Of a DNA stretch of 28,413 nt, positions 4,527 through 19,890 are shown piece after piece. Origin of the DNA: a virus; IMG/VR virus record IMGVR_UViG_3300028597_000056, positions 1-28,413 of that record. One strand, given 5' to 3'. Position 1 is the stretch's first letter, and each line of letters opens with the position of its first letter. The translations under genes and the position numbers were made by a program. The notes beneath the pieces were generated by a model. It had not been told where the DNA came from. It worked only from the letters and a program-made list of their open reading frames with translations, and made no database searches.

Positions 4527-4783
4527 GGTTCCTCCTCAGTGCTGGGGGTGAATCGGTCCGGCCAGAGACGGGCCAGGTACTCGGCGACCTCTGGGGTCGG
4601 CCCGGGAGATCGTGTGCCTGCTGGCCACGCGCCGGGGCGTGCCCGCTGGATGGCGGGCGGTGGTTCGGCAGCGGGTCGCGGCTTGGCGGCCTTCACGGGC
4701 AGGCCGCTCGCCATCAGCAACAGGGCCGCGATATCGCCCTGCGCGCGGGCGGCTGCGATGTCCTCGGGGGTCAGCTCGCTCAT
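4523..4783 (-). CDS. Small hypothetical protein downstream of dnaB
   Basis: The protein has 86 residues from an ATG at 4783 that overlaps the dnaB stop (ATGA). It has a short helical N-terminus (MSELTPEDIAAARAQGDIAA), a Pro/Ala-rich linker and an acidic C-terminus (RLWPDRFTPSTEEEP). The same frame is open far upstream inside dnaB, but the ATGA junction marks the real start. No family recognised. It could be a small adaptor of the helicase, which is speculation from position only. Confidence 0.65.
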   Translation of the reverse strand: MSELTPEDIAAARAQGDIAALLLMASGLPVKAAKPRPAAEPPPAIQRARPGAWPAGTRSPGPTPEVAEYLARLWPDRFTPSTEEEP

Positions 4784-6108
4784 GTCTGGGCCATGTCGAT
4801 GAACCGGCTGAAGTGCAGCTGAGACGCGACGGTGATCGTTGCGGTGGGCCCGTTGCGGTGCTTGTCGACGATCAGGTCCGTCTCGCCGGCCCGCGGGGAT
4901 TCCTTGGTGTAGGCGTCCTCGCGGTGGACGAGGATCACGACGTCGGCGTCCTGCTCGAGAGATCCGGACTCGCGCAGGTCGGCCTTGGTCGGCTTCTTGT
5001 CCTGCCGCTTCTCGGACTCCCGGTTGAGCTGGGAGAGGACCACGACGGGCACCTCGAGTTCCTTGGCGAGGAGCTTGAGGCTGCGGCTCATCTCGGAGAC
5101 TTCGAGCTGTCGGTTGTCTCGCCGGGTGGTGCCCGCGGTGAGCAGCTGGAGGTAGTCGATGACGACCAGGTCGAGGCCGCCCTGCTGCTTGAGGCGTCGG
5201 CACTTGGCCTTGATCTGGGCGACGGTCTGGTTGGGGCCGGCGTCGATGACGAGCGGGGCGGCGGCGATGTCGGGTGTGCGCCGGGCGATGCGGGTCCAGT
5301 CGTCGTCGGTCATCATCCCGCCCCGGATATGGTGCAGGCCGACGCGGGCCTCGGCCGAGGTGATGCGGGCCTGCACCTCGCGGCGGGACATCTCCAGGCT
5401 GAACAGGACGGACGGGCGGCCGTGCTTGATGGAGCAGGACCGGAGGAAGTCGACCCCGAGCGTCGACTTTCCGAGGCCGGGCCGCCCGGCGACGATGATG
5501 ACCTGCCCGGGGTGGAGCCCGTTCAGCAGACTGTCGAGGTCGGTGAAGCCGGTGGGCACGCCCATCGCGGTGCCGTTGCGGGCGAGTCCGTCGAGTTCCT
5601 CGAGGAACTCGCCGTAGTCGTCGCCGAGCGGGGCGAAGTCGGTGTCGTCGTCGATGGTGGTGATGTTGGCGATCTCGGTGGCGGCAGCGTCGACAGCTTC
5701 GGCGGCGTCCTGGCCGGAGTAGCCGAGGCTGGCGATGGTCGCGCCGGCCGTGATGAGGCGTCTGCGGGTCGCGCAGTCTCGGACGATCTCCGCGTGGTAG
5801 CCGGCGTTGGCCGCCGTCGGCACGTGGTTGATCAGGTCGTGGACGGCGAGTGCTCCGCCCACTTTGCCGAGCGTGCCCTGTTCGCGCAGGTAGTTGGTGA
5901 TCGCGATGGGGTCGGTGGGCTCCCCCTTGGCGAACATCGTGACGATGGCGTCGAACAGGACTTCGTGGGCGGGCTGGTGGAAGGCGGCACCCGTGATGAT
6001 CTCGATGACGTCCGCGATGGCGTCGCGGGACAGGAGCATCCCGCCCAGGACGGCGCGCTCGGCGGCCAGGTCGTGCGGCAGGGGGCGCTCGTAAGGCTGC
6101 TCGCTCAC
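4780..6108 (-). CDS. dnaB: Replicative DNA helicase, DnaB family
   Basis: The protein has 442 residues from a GTG at 6108 that overlaps the loader's stop (GTGA); an in-frame extension upstream is not needed. The N-terminal DnaB domain (about 8-110, LPHDLAAERAVLGGMLLSRD) is followed by the RecA-like ATPase domain: Walker A GRPGLGKST (208-216), Walker B VVIDYLQLL (315-323), the conserved SGSLEQDADVV (381-391) and the arginine-finger motif KHRNG (416-420). The length is normal for the family. It is a hexameric 5'-3' helicase that unwinds the fork and recruits primase. With the DnaC-like loader and the initiator directly upstream it forms a complete phage helicase-loading set. Confidence 0.95.
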   Translation of the reverse strand: MSEQPYERPLPHDLAAERAVLGGMLLSRDAIADVIEIITGAAFHQPAHEVLFDAIVTMFAKGEPTDPIAITNYLREQGTLGKVGGALAVHDLINHVPTAANAGYHAEIVRDCATRRRLITAGATIASLGYSGQDAAEAVDAAATEIANITTIDDDTDFAPLGDDYGEFLEELDGLARNGTAMGVPTGFTDLDSLLNGLHPGQVIIVAGRPGLGKSTLGVDFLRSCSIKHGRPSVLFSLEMSRREVQARITSAEARVGLHHIRGGMMTDDDWTRIARRTPDIAAAPLVIDAGPNQTVAQIKAKCRRLKQQGGLDLVVIDYLQLLTAGTTRRDNRQLEVSEMSRSLKLLAKELEVPVVVLSQLNRESEKRQDKKPTKADLRESGSLEQDADVVILVHREDAYTKESPRAGETDLIVDKHRNGPTATITVASQLHFSRFIDMAQT

Positions 6109-8506: not shown

Positions 8507-8830
8507 CTACTTACAGGGATGGGCGGATTGCTCGACAGGAGCGGCCGGCTGGTACCCGGCCGCTTCGCCGTTTCCGGCGGACGATCCCGTCTGGTACACG
8601 GGACCGGCGCCGTTCTCCTGCGGGGCGAGCCCGAGGAAGCGGTGGAGGTCGATAGTCCGGGCGACGCGTCGGCGTCCCAGGCGGATGACCTCGACAGGCA
8701 GGCGGCCCTCGGCCGCGAGCTGGTAGGTGGTGGACTCGGCGAGCCCCAGGGCCCGTCCGACGGTCGGCCACAGGGGCACGACGGCGGGCTGGTCGAGGAT
8801 CTCGGCGATCGTCAAAGCCGGGGCGGTCAT
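8507..8830 (-). CDS. Excisionase-like HTH DNA-binding protein
   Basis: The protein has 107 residues from an ATG at 8830 that overlaps the preceding stop (ATGA). Residues about 15-68 form a MerR/AlpA-type winged HTH: PLWPTVGRALGLAESTTYQL, then AAEGRLPVEVIRLGRRRVAR, then a terminal DLHRFLGL helix. This layout is typical of recombination directionality factors and of small activators. Residues 70-107 are flexible and Gly/Pro-rich. It sits in the early operon opposite the integrase, where a phage excisionase is expected; a transcription regulator remains possible. Confidence 0.7.
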   Translation of the reverse strand: MTAPALTIAEILDQPAVVPLWPTVGRALGLAESTTYQLAAEGRLPVEVIRLGRRRVARTIDLHRFLGLAPQENGAGPVYQTGSSAGNGEAAGYQPAAPVEQSAHPCK

Positions 8831-9063
8831 GCGGCTTCCCTCTCGGCGCCCGTCAGGCCGAGCACCTGCGCCCACTTCAAGGCCACAGAGCCTCGCGGCT
8901 GATTCGCGCCGGTCTCCCACCTCGAGACGGTGGAGGGGCTAGCGCCGATGGTGCGTGCGAGTTCGCGGAGTCCGATGTGCCGCGCCTCTCTCAAGGCGCG
9001 TGCGCGTCCGCTTGCAGCAAGACAGCGCAGCTCACCGACCATCCGAAGTTCTTCCGGGGTCAT
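8827..9063 (-). CDS. XRE/Cro-family transcriptional regulator
   Basis: The protein has 78 residues from an ATG at 9063; a TTG at 9099 would add 12 residues and overlap an operator-like repeat. The XRE helix-turn-helix is clear: ARALREARHIGLRELARTIG followed by ASPSTVSRWETGANQPRGSV. Proteins of this type bind palindromic operators. The gene heads the minus-strand early operon and faces the plus-strand HTH/integrase operon across a 110-base region with three repeats, the usual arrangement of a lysis/lysogeny switch. It may act as Cro or as the repressor; which one cannot be told from sequence. Confidence 0.8.
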   Translation of the reverse strand: MTPEELRMVGELRCLAASGRARALREARHIGLRELARTIGASPSTVSRWETGANQPRGSVALKWAQVLGLTGAEREAA

Positions 9064-9090
9064 GCGAAAGATGAAACACGATGGGGAGGC

Positions 9091-9150
9091 GTTGCGCAAC
9101 TGTTCCCAGACACGTTTCAGAATGATCTTCGGGAAGTGTTGCAGAACTGT
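9091..9150. promoter_or_regulatory. Operator-like triple repeat in the divergent control region
   Basis: Three related 13-mers stand at 9091-9103 (GTTGCGCAACTGT), 9114-9126 (GTTTCAGAATGAT) and 9138-9150 (GTTGCAGAACTGT), with starts 23 and 24 bases apart, about two helical turns. The first contains the perfect palindrome GTTGCGCAAC. Copies one and three match at 11 of 13 positions. They lie between the XRE regulator (minus) and the 9174 gene (plus). A weak plus-strand promoter could be TTGCAG (9139-9144) with GACGAT (9162-9167), 17 bases apart. Confidence 0.6.
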
Positions 9151-9173: not shown

Positions 9174-9932
9174 ATGACAGCGTTGAGCCTGAAGGTGGAG
9201 ATCGGGGAAGCCGAAGAGCGACCTGACTCCCTCGTCGCCACCGTGACGATTAGTGATGAACGTTATGAGCAGCTACTAGTGATCTTCGACTACCTAGTGG
9301 AAGGTGAAGAAGATCCAAAACTTCACGTGGTGCATTTCGAGCCTCGGGCTGAGGCACTGAAATCCGGCGATGTGCCACATCTGACGCCGACCCTCATCCG
9401 AGATTTCCCCATGAGCCAGTGGGACCGGATCGCGCAGGCCGCAGTGCGCAGGTCGCGCGCCACCCATCTACTACAGGGCGCCAAGAATTCACTGGAATCG
9501 ACAAACGTCAGAGTGATGGGCATCAAGCCAGCAGTTGAGTCCGATCATCCGACGCCCCTCGAGTGGGGACCATCGAAGATCGAGGCCGTTGACCTGCCAA
9601 AACCGAAGCCGGAAGACGTAGTGGCGGTCCTCGCCCCCGGCTTGAGCCCCGAGCAAGGCGCAGGGGCGAGACGGCGCTGGAACAGTTTGATGCGGTACGT
9701 CAAGATCTACACTGAGTACGAAGAACTGCTCGCCAGCGGAAATACAGATCCCATCACGGCTCTGGCTCAACAGAATGACGTCGCGAAAGCTACAGTTCGA
9801 TCTTGGCTCCACAGAGCAAGGGAAGCGGGTGTGGATAAAGTCGTTCACCTCGGGTTGTCTCAGCTACCGCTCTTCGCGCTCCCCGAGGACCCTCTTGTAC
9901 AACCGGACCCCCCTAAGGACAAAGACCAGTGA
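9174..9932 (+). CDS. Putative HTH regulator co-transcribed with the integrase
   Basis: The protein has 252 residues. The N-terminal part is beta-rich (SLKVEIGEAEERPDSLVATV) and unrecognised. The middle has a Pro/Asp-rich linker (EAVDLPKPKPEDVVAVLAPG). The C-terminal part contains a probable helix-turn-helix (PITALAQQNDVAKATVRSWL, then HRAREAGV). Composition is visibly less GC-rich than the rest of the window, with AAA, GAT and TCG codons, which suggests separate acquisition. Its stop overlaps the integrase GTG (GTGA). Being divergent from the XRE gene and adjacent to the integrase, it is a candidate immunity repressor or integration regulator. That is inference. Confidence 0.7.
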   Translation: MTALSLKVEIGEAEERPDSLVATVTISDERYEQLLVIFDYLVEGEEDPKLHVVHFEPRAEALKSGDVPHLTPTLIRDFPMSQWDRIAQAAVRRSRATHLLQGAKNSLESTNVRVMGIKPAVESDHPTPLEWGPSKIEAVDLPKPKPEDVVAVLAPGLSPEQGAGARRRWNSLMRYVKIYTEYEELLASGNTDPITALAQQNDVAKATVRSWLHRAREAGVDKVVHLGLSQLPLFALPEDPLVQPDPPKDKDQ

Positions 9933-11500
9933 AAGGTTCGACGTACCGACGCTGTTACTGCCGGGACGGTAGCGGCAAGGTGCTGGGCAAGTCGTGCCCG
10001 CAGCTGTCGAGCCGCCGTCATGGGGTCTGGGCTGTACGTCAGGAGCTTCCGCCGCGCGCCGACGGCGGCCGGCGCTCCTTCTCCCGCTCCGGGTACGGCA
10101 CAGCCAAGGAAGCCCAGGCAGACCTCGACAAGGTCCGCGCTCTCCTCGACCTCGCTCCCGGGGACGATCAGGAAGCGCAGACGAAGATCGGTGACCTGCT
10201 CGAGGCGGTCAGCAAGAACAAGAACGCTCCGCTCCCCGACCTCGGTGAGACGCGCCGCCGGTTCCGCGCGGGCCAGCCGCTTACGTCGAAGCTGACGGTC
10301 GGGGACTGGCTGGACGAGTGGGTGGAGTCGAAGAAGCGGAAGAGGTCCACGCTCAACGGCTACAGCTCCCACATCCGCGTGCACCTCAAGCCGGGCCTCG
10401 GCCACATCCTTCTGGACCGGTTGAACGTCGGGCACCTGGTGGAGTTCTTCGACGCCATCGACACGGCGAACGAGACGATCGAGGCGGAGAATCAGCAGCG
10501 GCGCGAGCAGGAGGCGCGGGCGACGTGGGGGAAGCGGTCCCGGCCGCCGGCGTCCGAGACGGCCCGGCTGGCCGTGGAGCGGGCGAAGCTGGAGGAGTTG
10601 CCCCCGTACCGGCGGATGACGGGCCCGGCGACCCAGCAGCGGATCCGGGCAACGCTCAGGTCGGCGCTCAATGCGGCGATCTCGCAGCAGCTGCTGACGT
10701 TCAACCCGGCGGCGCACGTGGAGCTCGCGTCGGGGAAGCGGCCGAAGGCTGTGCTGTGGACGCCGGAGCATGTGGAGCGGTGGCAGCGGTCGGGCGAGAA
10801 GCCGTCAGGGGTGATGGTGTGGACGCCTGTTCAGGTCGGCGAGTTCCTCGACCACGCCGAACAGGACCGGCTGTACGCGCTGTTCCACCTGATCGCGTTC
10901 CGTGGGCTGCGCCGCGGCGAGGCGGTCGGGCAGGACTGGGCCGGGATCAACTTCGCCAAGGCGCAGCTGACGGTCTCCAAGACGATCATCCAGGACGGGT
11001 GGACGCCGGTGGAGAGCGATCCGAAGACGGAGGGCAGCGCGGCGACGATCGCGCTCGGGCCGGCCACTCTGCAGGTTCTGGCTGAGCACCGTGTGCGGCA
11101 GCAGGCGGAGCGTCAGGCGTACCTGGACAACGGGCTGCCGTGGCAGGAGACGGGCAAGGTGTTCGTCGACGAGGACGGCGGATGGCTGCACCCGGAGAAG
11201 GTGTCGGACGTCTTCCGCCGGCTGTGCCGGGAGGCCGGGCTCCCGCCCATCAACCTTCGTGATCTACGCCACGTGGCCGCAACTCTGATCCATGCGGGTG
11301 GAGGTGACCTTCATGCGATCAAGGAGACGCTGCGGCACGGCACGATCCAGCTAGCGTCCGACACGTACACGTCCCTGCTGCCCCAGGTCGACCAGGAGGT
11401 GGCGAGGAATGCGGAGAGCATCGTCCCGCGTGCCCGCCGCCCCCTGCCGTCTGACACTGCCGCTCACGCATCGCTCACGCAGAACGCTGGAAACGACTGA
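9929..11500 (+). CDS. int: Tyrosine site-specific integrase
   Basis: The protein has 523 residues from a GTG at 9929. The N-terminal arm-binding region contains a Cys-bearing motif (YRRCYCRDGSGKVLGKSCPQ). A SAM-like core-binding domain spans about 120-275 with a long charged insertion (180-230). The catalytic domain runs from about 297 to 490. Catalytic residues visible are R328 (GLRRGE), K366 (DPKTEGS), R447 (LRDLRH), H470 (LRHGTI) and the nucleophile Y480 (SDTYTSL). The usual first His of the HxxR box is Arg (R444). It would recombine the phage attP with a host tRNA-Met gene; a tRNA-Met fragment lies 72 bases past its stop. Its last codons encode one pair of the proposed arm sites. Confidence 0.95.
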   Translation: MKGSTYRRCYCRDGSGKVLGKSCPQLSSRRHGVWAVRQELPPRADGGRRSFSRSGYGTAKEAQADLDKVRALLDLAPGDDQEAQTKIGDLLEAVSKNKNAPLPDLGETRRRFRAGQPLTSKLTVGDWLDEWVESKKRKRSTLNGYSSHIRVHLKPGLGHILLDRLNVGHLVEFFDAIDTANETIEAENQQRREQEARATWGKRSRPPASETARLAVERAKLEELPPYRRMTGPATQQRIRATLRSALNAAISQQLLTFNPAAHVELASGKRPKAVLWTPEHVERWQRSGEKPSGVMVWTPVQVGEFLDHAEQDRLYALFHLIAFRGLRRGEAVGQDWAGINFAKAQLTVSKTIIQDGWTPVESDPKTEGSAATIALGPATLQVLAEHRVRQQAERQAYLDNGLPWQETGKVFVDEDGGWLHPEKVSDVFRRLCREAGLPPINLRDLRHVAATLIHAGGGDLHAIKETLRHGTIQLASDTYTSLLPQVDQEVARNAESIVPRARRPLPSDTAAHASLTQNAGND

Positions 11501-11534
11501 GCGCCCGTCCTGGTCTAAACCAGTTCGGGCGCTC
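11499..11534 (+). terminator. Integrase terminator hairpin
   Basis: GAGCGCCCG (11499-11507) pairs with CGGGCGCTC (11526-11534). Inside it, CTGGT (11510-11514) pairs with ACCAG (11519-11523), leaving a CTAA loop and a 2x2 internal mismatch. The hairpin overlaps the integrase stop codon and precedes the att core. It should end the plus-strand transcript. Confidence 0.8.
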
Positions 11535-11629
11535 GGATCGCTGGTGACACCTGTTTTTCGAACGGGTGTCCTGGTGGGGCGGGTGGGACTCGAACCCACG
11601 GCCGACGGATTATGAGTCCGAAGTTTCTA

Positions 11630-11656
11630 CTCCGGGTGACTCCGGGTGACTCCGGA
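11630..11656. repeat. Tandem 10-base repeat beside the att core
   Basis: CTCCGGGTGA is repeated head to tail at 11630-11639 and 11640-11649, followed by the partial copy CTCCGGATG. It starts 10 bases from the tRNA-like core, on the side away from the integrase. It may be an extra recombinase or host-factor site. Past it, 11657-11926 shows no gene, only the arm-site pair at 11732-11752 and its inverted copy. Confidence 0.6.
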
Positions 11657-11926
11657 TGCTCTAAGAATCCCTGGTCGCGGTGGCCGATCCCTCCGGCTCA
11701 CTCCGCCGATTCCGGCTCCCTTGCGGACCTCCGCTCACGCACCGCTCACGCAATCCCCCGGTCCCGCGTGAGCGCTGACCTGCGCAGATCCCATTGTCCC
11801 GCACTCACCCGCGCACCACAATGCCCGGACACGGAGCGGCCCCGGTCGACGACGGGGCGTCGGCCGGGGCCGCGGATCCCGTCCGCCCCGGAGCACGGGG
11901 AGCACGAGAGCGGTCGGGAATCGAGT

Positions 11927-18708: not shown

Positions 18709-19890
18709 CTACCTCGCTTCCAGTCGTCCGAGTCGGCGGGCCAGATCTCGCACGGTGCGCACCGTGGCCGTCGTTGTCGTCTTGTCGCTGTCGCCGATCA
18801 CGGCAGTGACCTGCTCCCCTTCATCAGGTGTGGCTTCCAGGCGGATCGTCTGGACGATGTCCGCGATCTCCAGTCCGGTGGGGAGTACGACCGTGACCTT
18901 GTCGCCGAGGCCGTAGTCCCGGCCGGCCTTCAGGTCCTCGGTGTCCACCGTCACGGTGGACAAGGAGGCTTGCGGGTTGTCGTCGCCGAGGGCGAGGGTC
19001 CCGGCCTGGGTGAGTTCCCCATCGGCGTCCGTCTTGCCGGACTCCTCGAGGAGCTTCTCCACCCGGTACCAGTCAGCGGCGTGCCCGCTGGAAACCTCGA
19101 CGTACACCCGCTGGTTGGCGGGCTCCCCCGAGGGCGCCTGTTGCTTGGGGTCCTCGCCGCCCTGCACCAGCTCGGCCGTGGCCCGCGGGGCGCCCATCGT
19201 GAAGCGCACGCTGCGGAGGTTGCCGAGCCCGGCCGAGAAGCGGGCCGTGCCGGTGCGGTCGACGGGGGCGTACACCCCGAACCGGATCTGCCCGTTGTGC
19301 TGGCGTGTGCGGAACCCGAGCCGGTGCCAGGCCGCTGCGGTACGGCAGGCGTCCAGCAGCGGCTCGAACCGCGTAGTGAGCGAGCGGGGCCCGCCGACGC
19401 CGGCGACGTCGTCGAGGACCAGCTGCTCAATGCGCCGGACGCTCAGCGCGCCGGGCCCGCAGTTCTCGTTCACCAGCGCCCTGATGATGAGCTCAGCGTT
19501 GACGCTGACACGGGTCCACTGCACGTCCGCGGTGGTGGTCTGCGCCGCGAAGCTCACGGCCGGGTTGGGGTAGGTGAGGTACCCGGCGATCCTGGCGAGG
19601 TCGTCGGTGAAACGGACGGTCACCGTGCCCGGGCCGGCGTTCTGCGCCAGGTCCCACACGTAGTCCTGGGGTTCCTCCAGCGGGCCCGCGCACCAGATCC
19701 CTCCGTCACGGACGACGACCATGCGGTTGCCGGGCTGCAGCAGTTCCATGTACGCGGGCCGGGCGGGCAGCTGCACCTCACCGGCCGCGGGACGGTTGTG
19801 GTTGAGGTCGCACTTCAGCTGGCCCCACCCGTCGAGCGGATCACCGAGCCAGTTCAGGTTCCGGTCAGTGACCAGCAGTTGGATGCTCAT
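18709..19890 (-). CDS. Siphovirus Gp37-like tail protein
   Basis: The protein has 393 residues from an ATG at 19890 that overlaps the Dit stop (ATGA). It starts MSIQLLVTDRNLNWLGDPLD. The segments RMVVVRDGGIWCAGPLEEPQ and later YGLGDKVTVVLPTGLEIADI fit the Gp37-like family (Sipho_Gp37) of actinophage tail-tip proteins, which occupy the place of the tail-associated hub. The C-terminus carries a short basic helix (VRTVRDLARRLGRLEAR). It is expected in the baseplate, between Dit and the receptor-binding proteins. Confidence 0.8.
   Translation of the reverse strand: MSIQLLVTDRNLNWLGDPLDGWGQLKCDLNHNRPAAGEVQLPARPAYMELLQPGNRMVVVRDGGIWCAGPLEEPQDYVWDLAQNAGPGTVTVRFTDDLARIAGYLTYPNPAVSFAAQTTTADVQWTRVSVNAELIIRALVNENCGPGALSVRRIEQLVLDDVAGVGGPRSLTTRFEPLLDACRTAAAWHRLGFRTRQHNGQIRFGVYAPVDRTGTARFSAGLGNLRSVRFTMGAPRATAELVQGGEDPKQQAPSGEPANQRVYVEVSSGHAADWYRVEKLLEESGKTDADGELTQAGTLALGDDNPQASLSTVTVDTEDLKAGRDYGLGDKVTVVLPTGLEIADIVQTIRLEATPDEGEQVTAVIGDSDKTTTTATVRTVRDLARRLGRLEAR

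Follow-up and report, generated by a model that had tools for sequence, protein, structure and literature searches.

What kind of site is formed by a tRNA fragment that lies just beyond a phage integrase gene with short repeats on either side of it, and which part of the integrase reads the repeats? The choice of arm sites by the N-terminal domains of tyrosine integrases is poorly defined. Earlier comparisons either found no link between sites and N-terminal domain (cluster J mycobacteriophages; PMC3706429) or covered very close relatives (cluster K; PMC10865867). We addressed both questions in a 28.4-kb linear virus record, hereafter the window (the whole stretch of DNA analysed), in which replication genes occupy the left side and the tail and head genes the right. 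The results indicate that positions 11461-11752 are very probably the attP of a temperate Streptomyces phage that targets tRNA-Met(CAT), with the N-terminal domain of the integrase acting on paired CGCTCACGCA arms.

Paired decamers flank a single tRNA-Met core

The decamer CGCTCACGCA occurs exactly four times in the window (11461-11470, 11472-11481, 11732-11741 and 11743-11752), always on the + strand and nowhere else. Shuffled windows hold 0.31 copies on average, none of 100 shuffles reached four, and two pairs in one window were never seen. The 21-base pair unit, present twice in the window, reaches a mean of 0.03 and a maximum of 1 in 100 shuffles searched at up to three mismatches. The elements of the site are as follows.

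11461..11481, + strand: putative left arm-site pair, CGCTCACGCA-T-CGCTCACGCA, in the last integrase codons (exact matches, shuffles, relatives)
about 11574..11621, - strand: attP core, the 3' half of tRNA-Met(CAT), which would restore the host gene on integration (identical segment within complete tRNA-Met beside related integrases)
11610..11616, + strand: TTATGAG of the anticodon loop, proposed 7-bp overlap between inverted half-sites CGGA/TCCG (position and sequence symmetry)
11732..11752, + strand: putative right arm-site pair, CGCTCACGCA-C-CGCTCACGCA (exact matches, shuffles, spacing, right-arm alignment)

Within both pairs the decamers follow each other at 11-bp spacing, and the pairs enclose the tRNA-Met(CAT) 3' half, the 7-bp TTATGAG segment being separated from the left pair by 128 bp and from the right pair by 115 bp. 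The site therefore shows repeated arm sites on either side of a core, as in attP sites of the lambda/L5 type. The initial annotation had described direct pairs with an 11-base period on each side of a tRNA fragment, and these prove exact, unique in the window and far above the shuffled level. It had placed the left pair inside the last integrase codons, where the open reading frame (9929-11500) indeed covers 11461-11481, and had taken frequent copies of the decamer elsewhere in the phage as grounds for rejecting its reading; the only four copies are all at the attP. Because both pairs flank a single core with phage genes on either side, the site is an undivided attP, and the proposal of a complete attP is borne out. 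Megablast of the attP region against phage records gave no match.

The segment at about 11574-11621 is identical to the 3' half of a tRNA-Met(CAT) that relatives have complete, and in related integrated Streptomyces prophages the core sequence belongs to a complete tRNA-Met. A complete tRNA-Met beside the integrase is what integration at the anticodon loop would give. By analogy with other tRNA-targeting integrases, TTATGAG would be the 7-bp overlap. Elsewhere in the window, ARAGORN reported a tRNA-Ala(GGC) at 19559-19639, in the tail gene region, which has no Rfam match at the gathering score and is probably a false positive.

The inverted near-copy of the decamer that had been listed at 11765-11774 exists, with one mismatch, and was rejected as a fifth arm site. 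The window contains nine decamers within one mismatch, where 6.1 are expected, and no inverted near-copy occurs in the five related right arms compared. Because one-mismatch decamers are common and this one is missing from the related right arms, it carries no weight and is probably a chance match.

The integrase carries a Cys-containing N-terminal domain

The protein encoded upstream of the core and its predicted N-terminal domain are as follows.

9929..11500, + strand: tyrosine integrase of 523 aa (Pfam, PHROG, catalytic residues, AF2 fold)
9929..10153, + strand: predicted N-terminal arm-binding domain, aa 1-75, C9-x-C11...C23...H31 (residue conservation, AF2)

The integrase matches Phage_integrase (PF00589; 7e-10) and Phage_int_SAM_3 (4e-5) in Pfam and an integrase family in PHROG (6e-48). 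The catalytic Arg, Lys, Arg, His and Tyr of a tyrosine recombinase are in place: R328, K366, R447 and Y480 are invariant among 45 relatives, and H470 is nearly so. The AF2 model of the full-length protein (pLDDT 90) finds Tn1549, lambda and Xer recombinases among solved structures in the PDB. In the N-terminal domain, C9, C11 and C23 are invariant and H31 is conserved in at least 90% of 66 sequences, and the four residues could form a metal site. The isolated domain is predicted to fold as three strands followed by a helix (pLDDT 88); two rows from phage and plasmid collections were left out of the structure prediction input. No Pfam model covers aa 1-75, a PDB sequence search gave no match, and Foldseek against solved structures gave nothing significant. 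The lambda and Tn916 arm-binding fold is a three-stranded sheet plus a helix; no PDB match to the predicted domain falls below E=0.7, and homology of the model to that fold is not established. As a putative arm-binding domain that matches neither Pfam nor the PDB, the CxC...C...H domain looks new.

The pair stands at fixed distances from tRNA genes in Streptomyces

The initial annotation had suggested a search of Streptomyces genomes for the same pairs beside related integrases. The pair (at most one mismatch) is present in 149 of 296 genomes, against 2 for a reversed-pattern control, and it lies at the ends of related prophages. Among the 26 first relatives, several of which are the same prophage present in two collections, 23 have the exact left pair at the 3' end of the integrase gene; in the others the pair has one mismatch (L026) or two mismatches (L022, 63% identity), or only a single decamer is found (L025). 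In nearly all close relatives the left pair is followed by a complete tRNA-Met where the contig extends far enough. Whole-record searches place the pair at both ends of related prophages, and in an 8.4-Mb and a 7-Mb genome the sole two matches (at most two mismatches) delimit one element each, of 40 kb and 34 kb. The pair is also a useful DNA tag: in about half of the sampled Streptomyces genomes it marks where integrated elements end, and it specifies the sequences that a vector for integration at tRNA-Met would need.

Sixty fetched regions, picked because the pair is present in them, contain 66 pair arrays. Of these, 51 keep a fixed distance either to one of four tRNA species (tRNA-Met, -Lys, -Thr and -Arg) or to a duplicated 3' half, a figure that describes the position of the pair and not its frequency. 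Twenty-six arrays lie 79-93 bp ahead of a complete tRNA of one of the four species; the other 25 come after a duplicated tRNA 3' half, at a distance of 156-171 bp that is mostly 158-161 bp. Arrays of the tRNA-Arg group lie about 11 bp nearer. The remaining 15 arrays have no recognised tRNA or 3' half at the expected distance. Metagenomic phages with the same N-terminal domain have complete attPs with the same arms around a tRNA-Thr(TGT) core, where the right spacing (114-115 bp) is as in the window and the left spacing is 33 bp shorter. When eight right-arm regions are aligned, no conserved stretch is longer than the decamer pair.

Some arrays contain three or five decamers at 11-bp steps. Three to five decamers replace the pair in L133 (4276-4329), L134 and L135, which suggests that arm sites grow by tandem duplication. 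In L024 of S. djakartensis (4690-4860), the integrase C-terminus, arm pair and tRNA-Met 3' half run into unrelated sequence with no complete tRNA-Met, and this appears to be a displaced or rearranged element.

Arm sequence follows the N-terminal domain

Among the integrases surveyed, 29 of 35 with a KGST[YHF]RRC N-terminal domain carry the pair, compared with 0 of 72 others. Six of the 35 have no recognisable pair nearby, and some of these may be remnants or displaced. In a partial Mantel test on 51 integrases with assigned arms, arm sequence correlates with the N-terminal domain given the catalytic domain (r=0.56, 0/2000 permutations, a count to be taken as a guide rather than an exact probability, as the sequences are related and a few loci had their arms assigned manually), whereas the converse correlation with the catalytic domain given the N-terminal domain is absent (r=-0.03). 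Distant integrases at tRNA-Lys and tRNA-Thr are 67-72% identical to that of the window in the N-terminal domain and 47-54% identical in the core-binding and catalytic parts. The integrase of the Streptomyces phage TurkishDelight shows the opposite pattern (53% in the N-terminal domain, 64% in the catalytic domain) and has another decamer. Arm sequence follows the N-terminal domain both in the partial Mantel test and in the prediction of decamer classes described below. The claim that the Cys-bearing N-terminal domain recognises the arm sites gains from these results: the motif keeps a fixed distance from the tRNA and tracks this domain, and other N-terminal domains come with other decamers. 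That the Cys-bearing domain reads the CGCTCACGCA sites is the best-supported reading of these sequence comparisons.

Excisionases, too, recognise short direct repeats close to the core, and the pairs could in principle be sites for an excisionase (RDF) or accessory factor rather than integrase arm sites. The window encodes a weak HTH candidate and contains further repeats, one set near the core and one more copy near the right arm.

8507..8920, - strand: candidate excisionase with an HTH_17/AlpA-like domain (weak; HTH_17 0.0015, Phage_AlpA 0.0084, below the curated cut-off)
8827-9099, - strand: HTH_31/HTH_3 repressor-like protein that adjoins the candidate excisionase (family search)
11629..11660, + strand: 10-bp direct repeat ACTCCGGGTG, about three copies, possible excisionase (RDF) sites
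11691..11707, + strand: CTCCGGCTCACTCCGCC region, a further ACTCCGG-type element near the right arm (conserved alignment columns), of putative function

This reading of the pairs is improbable: they lie on both arms, whereas RDF sites usually lie on one; the identity of the decamer tracks the N-terminal domain of the integrase; and the separate 10-bp repeat between the core and the right arm is a better RDF candidate, at which directionality might be controlled. Seven other right arms have ACTCCGG elements at much the same position. An analogous 10-bp repeat, for example GATACGAGAC, lies between the left arm and the core in attPs of the TGCTGGCCC type. The protein of 8827-9099 is a possible immunity repressor.

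Less probable still is a role of the pairs as operators through which a phage or host regulator controls integrase expression. Cluster J mycobacteriophages do have arm-like inverted sites at the start of int (PMC3706429), but of the two pairs in the window one lies at the 3' end of int and the other beyond the core, and no site matching at 8/10 or better was found around the int start.

The position of the left pair varies from inside the integrase open reading frame to 15 bp beyond the stop codon, while its distance to the tRNA is constant, indicating selection on the DNA and not on the protein. That the left pair, which is in frame in the last integrase codons, is kept only as coding sequence for the integrase C-terminus and that the right pair is a coincidence is hardly credible, since several tRNA-Lys and tRNA-Thr relatives have the left pair past the stop codon, and the right pair varies neither in sequence nor in its spacing from the core.

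Proposed mechanism and relation to known systems

We therefore retain the pairs as very probable arm sites of the integrase. The layout, its conservation, the fixed tRNA distances and the co-variation of arm and N-terminal domain are observed directly; for binding, protomer count and bending we propose the following. The tyrosine integrase encoded just upstream would bind DNA with two heads, in the manner of the lambda/L5 integrases. Strand exchange by its core-binding and catalytic domains would take place in the anticodon loop across the TTATGAG overlap, and the 3' half carried by the phage would then rebuild an intact tRNA. The N-terminal CxC...C...H domain would hold the paired CGCTCACGCA sites on both arms, probably with a single integrase protomer on each decamer and two adjacent protomers on each pair, and bending of the DNA would bring the arms and core into a single complex.

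Lambda integrase likewise reads core and arm sites with separate domains of one protein. The core-binding and catalytic parts of the window integrase share its fold in the PDB matches, whereas the putative arm-binding domain, with its Cys/His motif, has no significant fold match there.

The initial annotation had called the layout unusually easy to read; the layout itself is not unusual, because mycobacteriophage attP sites match it (PMC3203893, PMC3706429). Direct arm-site pairs flank the core in L5 and Giles (PMC3203893) and pairs have also been described in clusters J and K (PMC3706429, PMC10865867), so the architecture is of a known kind. The L5 and Giles attPs resemble the window in having direct-orientation arm-type pairs around the core (PMC3203893), but L5 has additional arm sites. 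The Giles integrase is about 26% identical to that of the window over part of its length, and the likeness drawn is one of layout rather than of decamers. The attPs of cluster J (Omega, BAKA) also have 10-bp imperfect direct pairs (P1/P2, P3/P4), a core about 100 bp from the 3' end of int and an attB end in the anticodon loop (PMC3706429). They differ in their consensus, TGCATACg/tPuPy, and in their target, tRNA-Leu, and no systematic link between sites and N-terminal domain was seen among them (PMC3706429), whereas the link is visible in the Streptomyces set. Closer relatives are the integrases of TurkishDelight and of the plasmid NBC_01335 unnamed2, which are 54-58% identical to that of the window and whose sites are likewise paired at 11-bp spacing around a tRNA core, but with a different N-terminal domain, the decamers TGCTCCACCG and TGCTGGCCCC and a tRNA-Lys-like core.

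A literature search for the decamer, which did not extend to older pSAM2 work, gave no relevant match among the papers listed. A tool based on the Streptomyces phage Samy was set aside as a precedent, its sites being described as of the serine-integrase type.

A wider family of decamer classes

Integrases with other CxC...C...H N-terminal domains have their own decamers with the same 11-bp period. Period-11 tandem pairs occur at 32 of 59 diverse integrase loci (representatives less than 80% identical to one another), compared with 1.35 in shuffles and at most 8 for other periods. The decamer classes include TGCTGGCCC, TGCTCGCCC, TGCTCCACC and TGCTCAACC. The predicted TGCTCAACC class is the best match (18-19/20) in all four further integrases with an RVSQEL...RRRFQR N-terminal domain, which had shown no pair in the repeat scan or were new to the survey; as the four are closely related to one another, the test is modest.

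At residues 33/35/37 and 50/52, integrases with ACC-type decamers differ from those with CCC-type decamers, each ACC-type class having only two members. These residues alternate along the predicted strands 33-40 and 49-56, as would be expected for a sheet facing DNA. We tentatively suggest, at somewhat less than even confidence, that actinobacterial integrases of this type are modular: the CxC...C...H domain and its matching 11-bp paired arm sites would have been kept or exchanged separately from the catalytic part that is specific for the tRNA, so that one arm site serves elements at tRNA-Met, -Lys, -Thr and -Arg, and a readable residue-to-base code (33/35/37, 50/52) would set the decamer. 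One arm site common to several tRNA targets looks new. Since several decamer classes share one layout and the same decamer occurs at different tRNA cores, domain swaps and single-residue changes would be direct tests.

If arms are shared, elements that lack an integrase could be moved by the integrase of another element. Arm pairs and an intact tRNA with no integrase found nearby occur in L140 (4594-9040), L109, L107, L132, L138, L141 and L148; in L140, the pairs flank a 4.3-kb stretch at tRNA-Lys with an apparent transposase and bacterial-type genes. Such loci could be remnants, or elements that another element's integrase can move. In L267, L296 and L302, two integrases with different N-terminal domains and decamer classes lie a few kb apart in opposite orientation, which suggests adjacent or nested elements at one locus.
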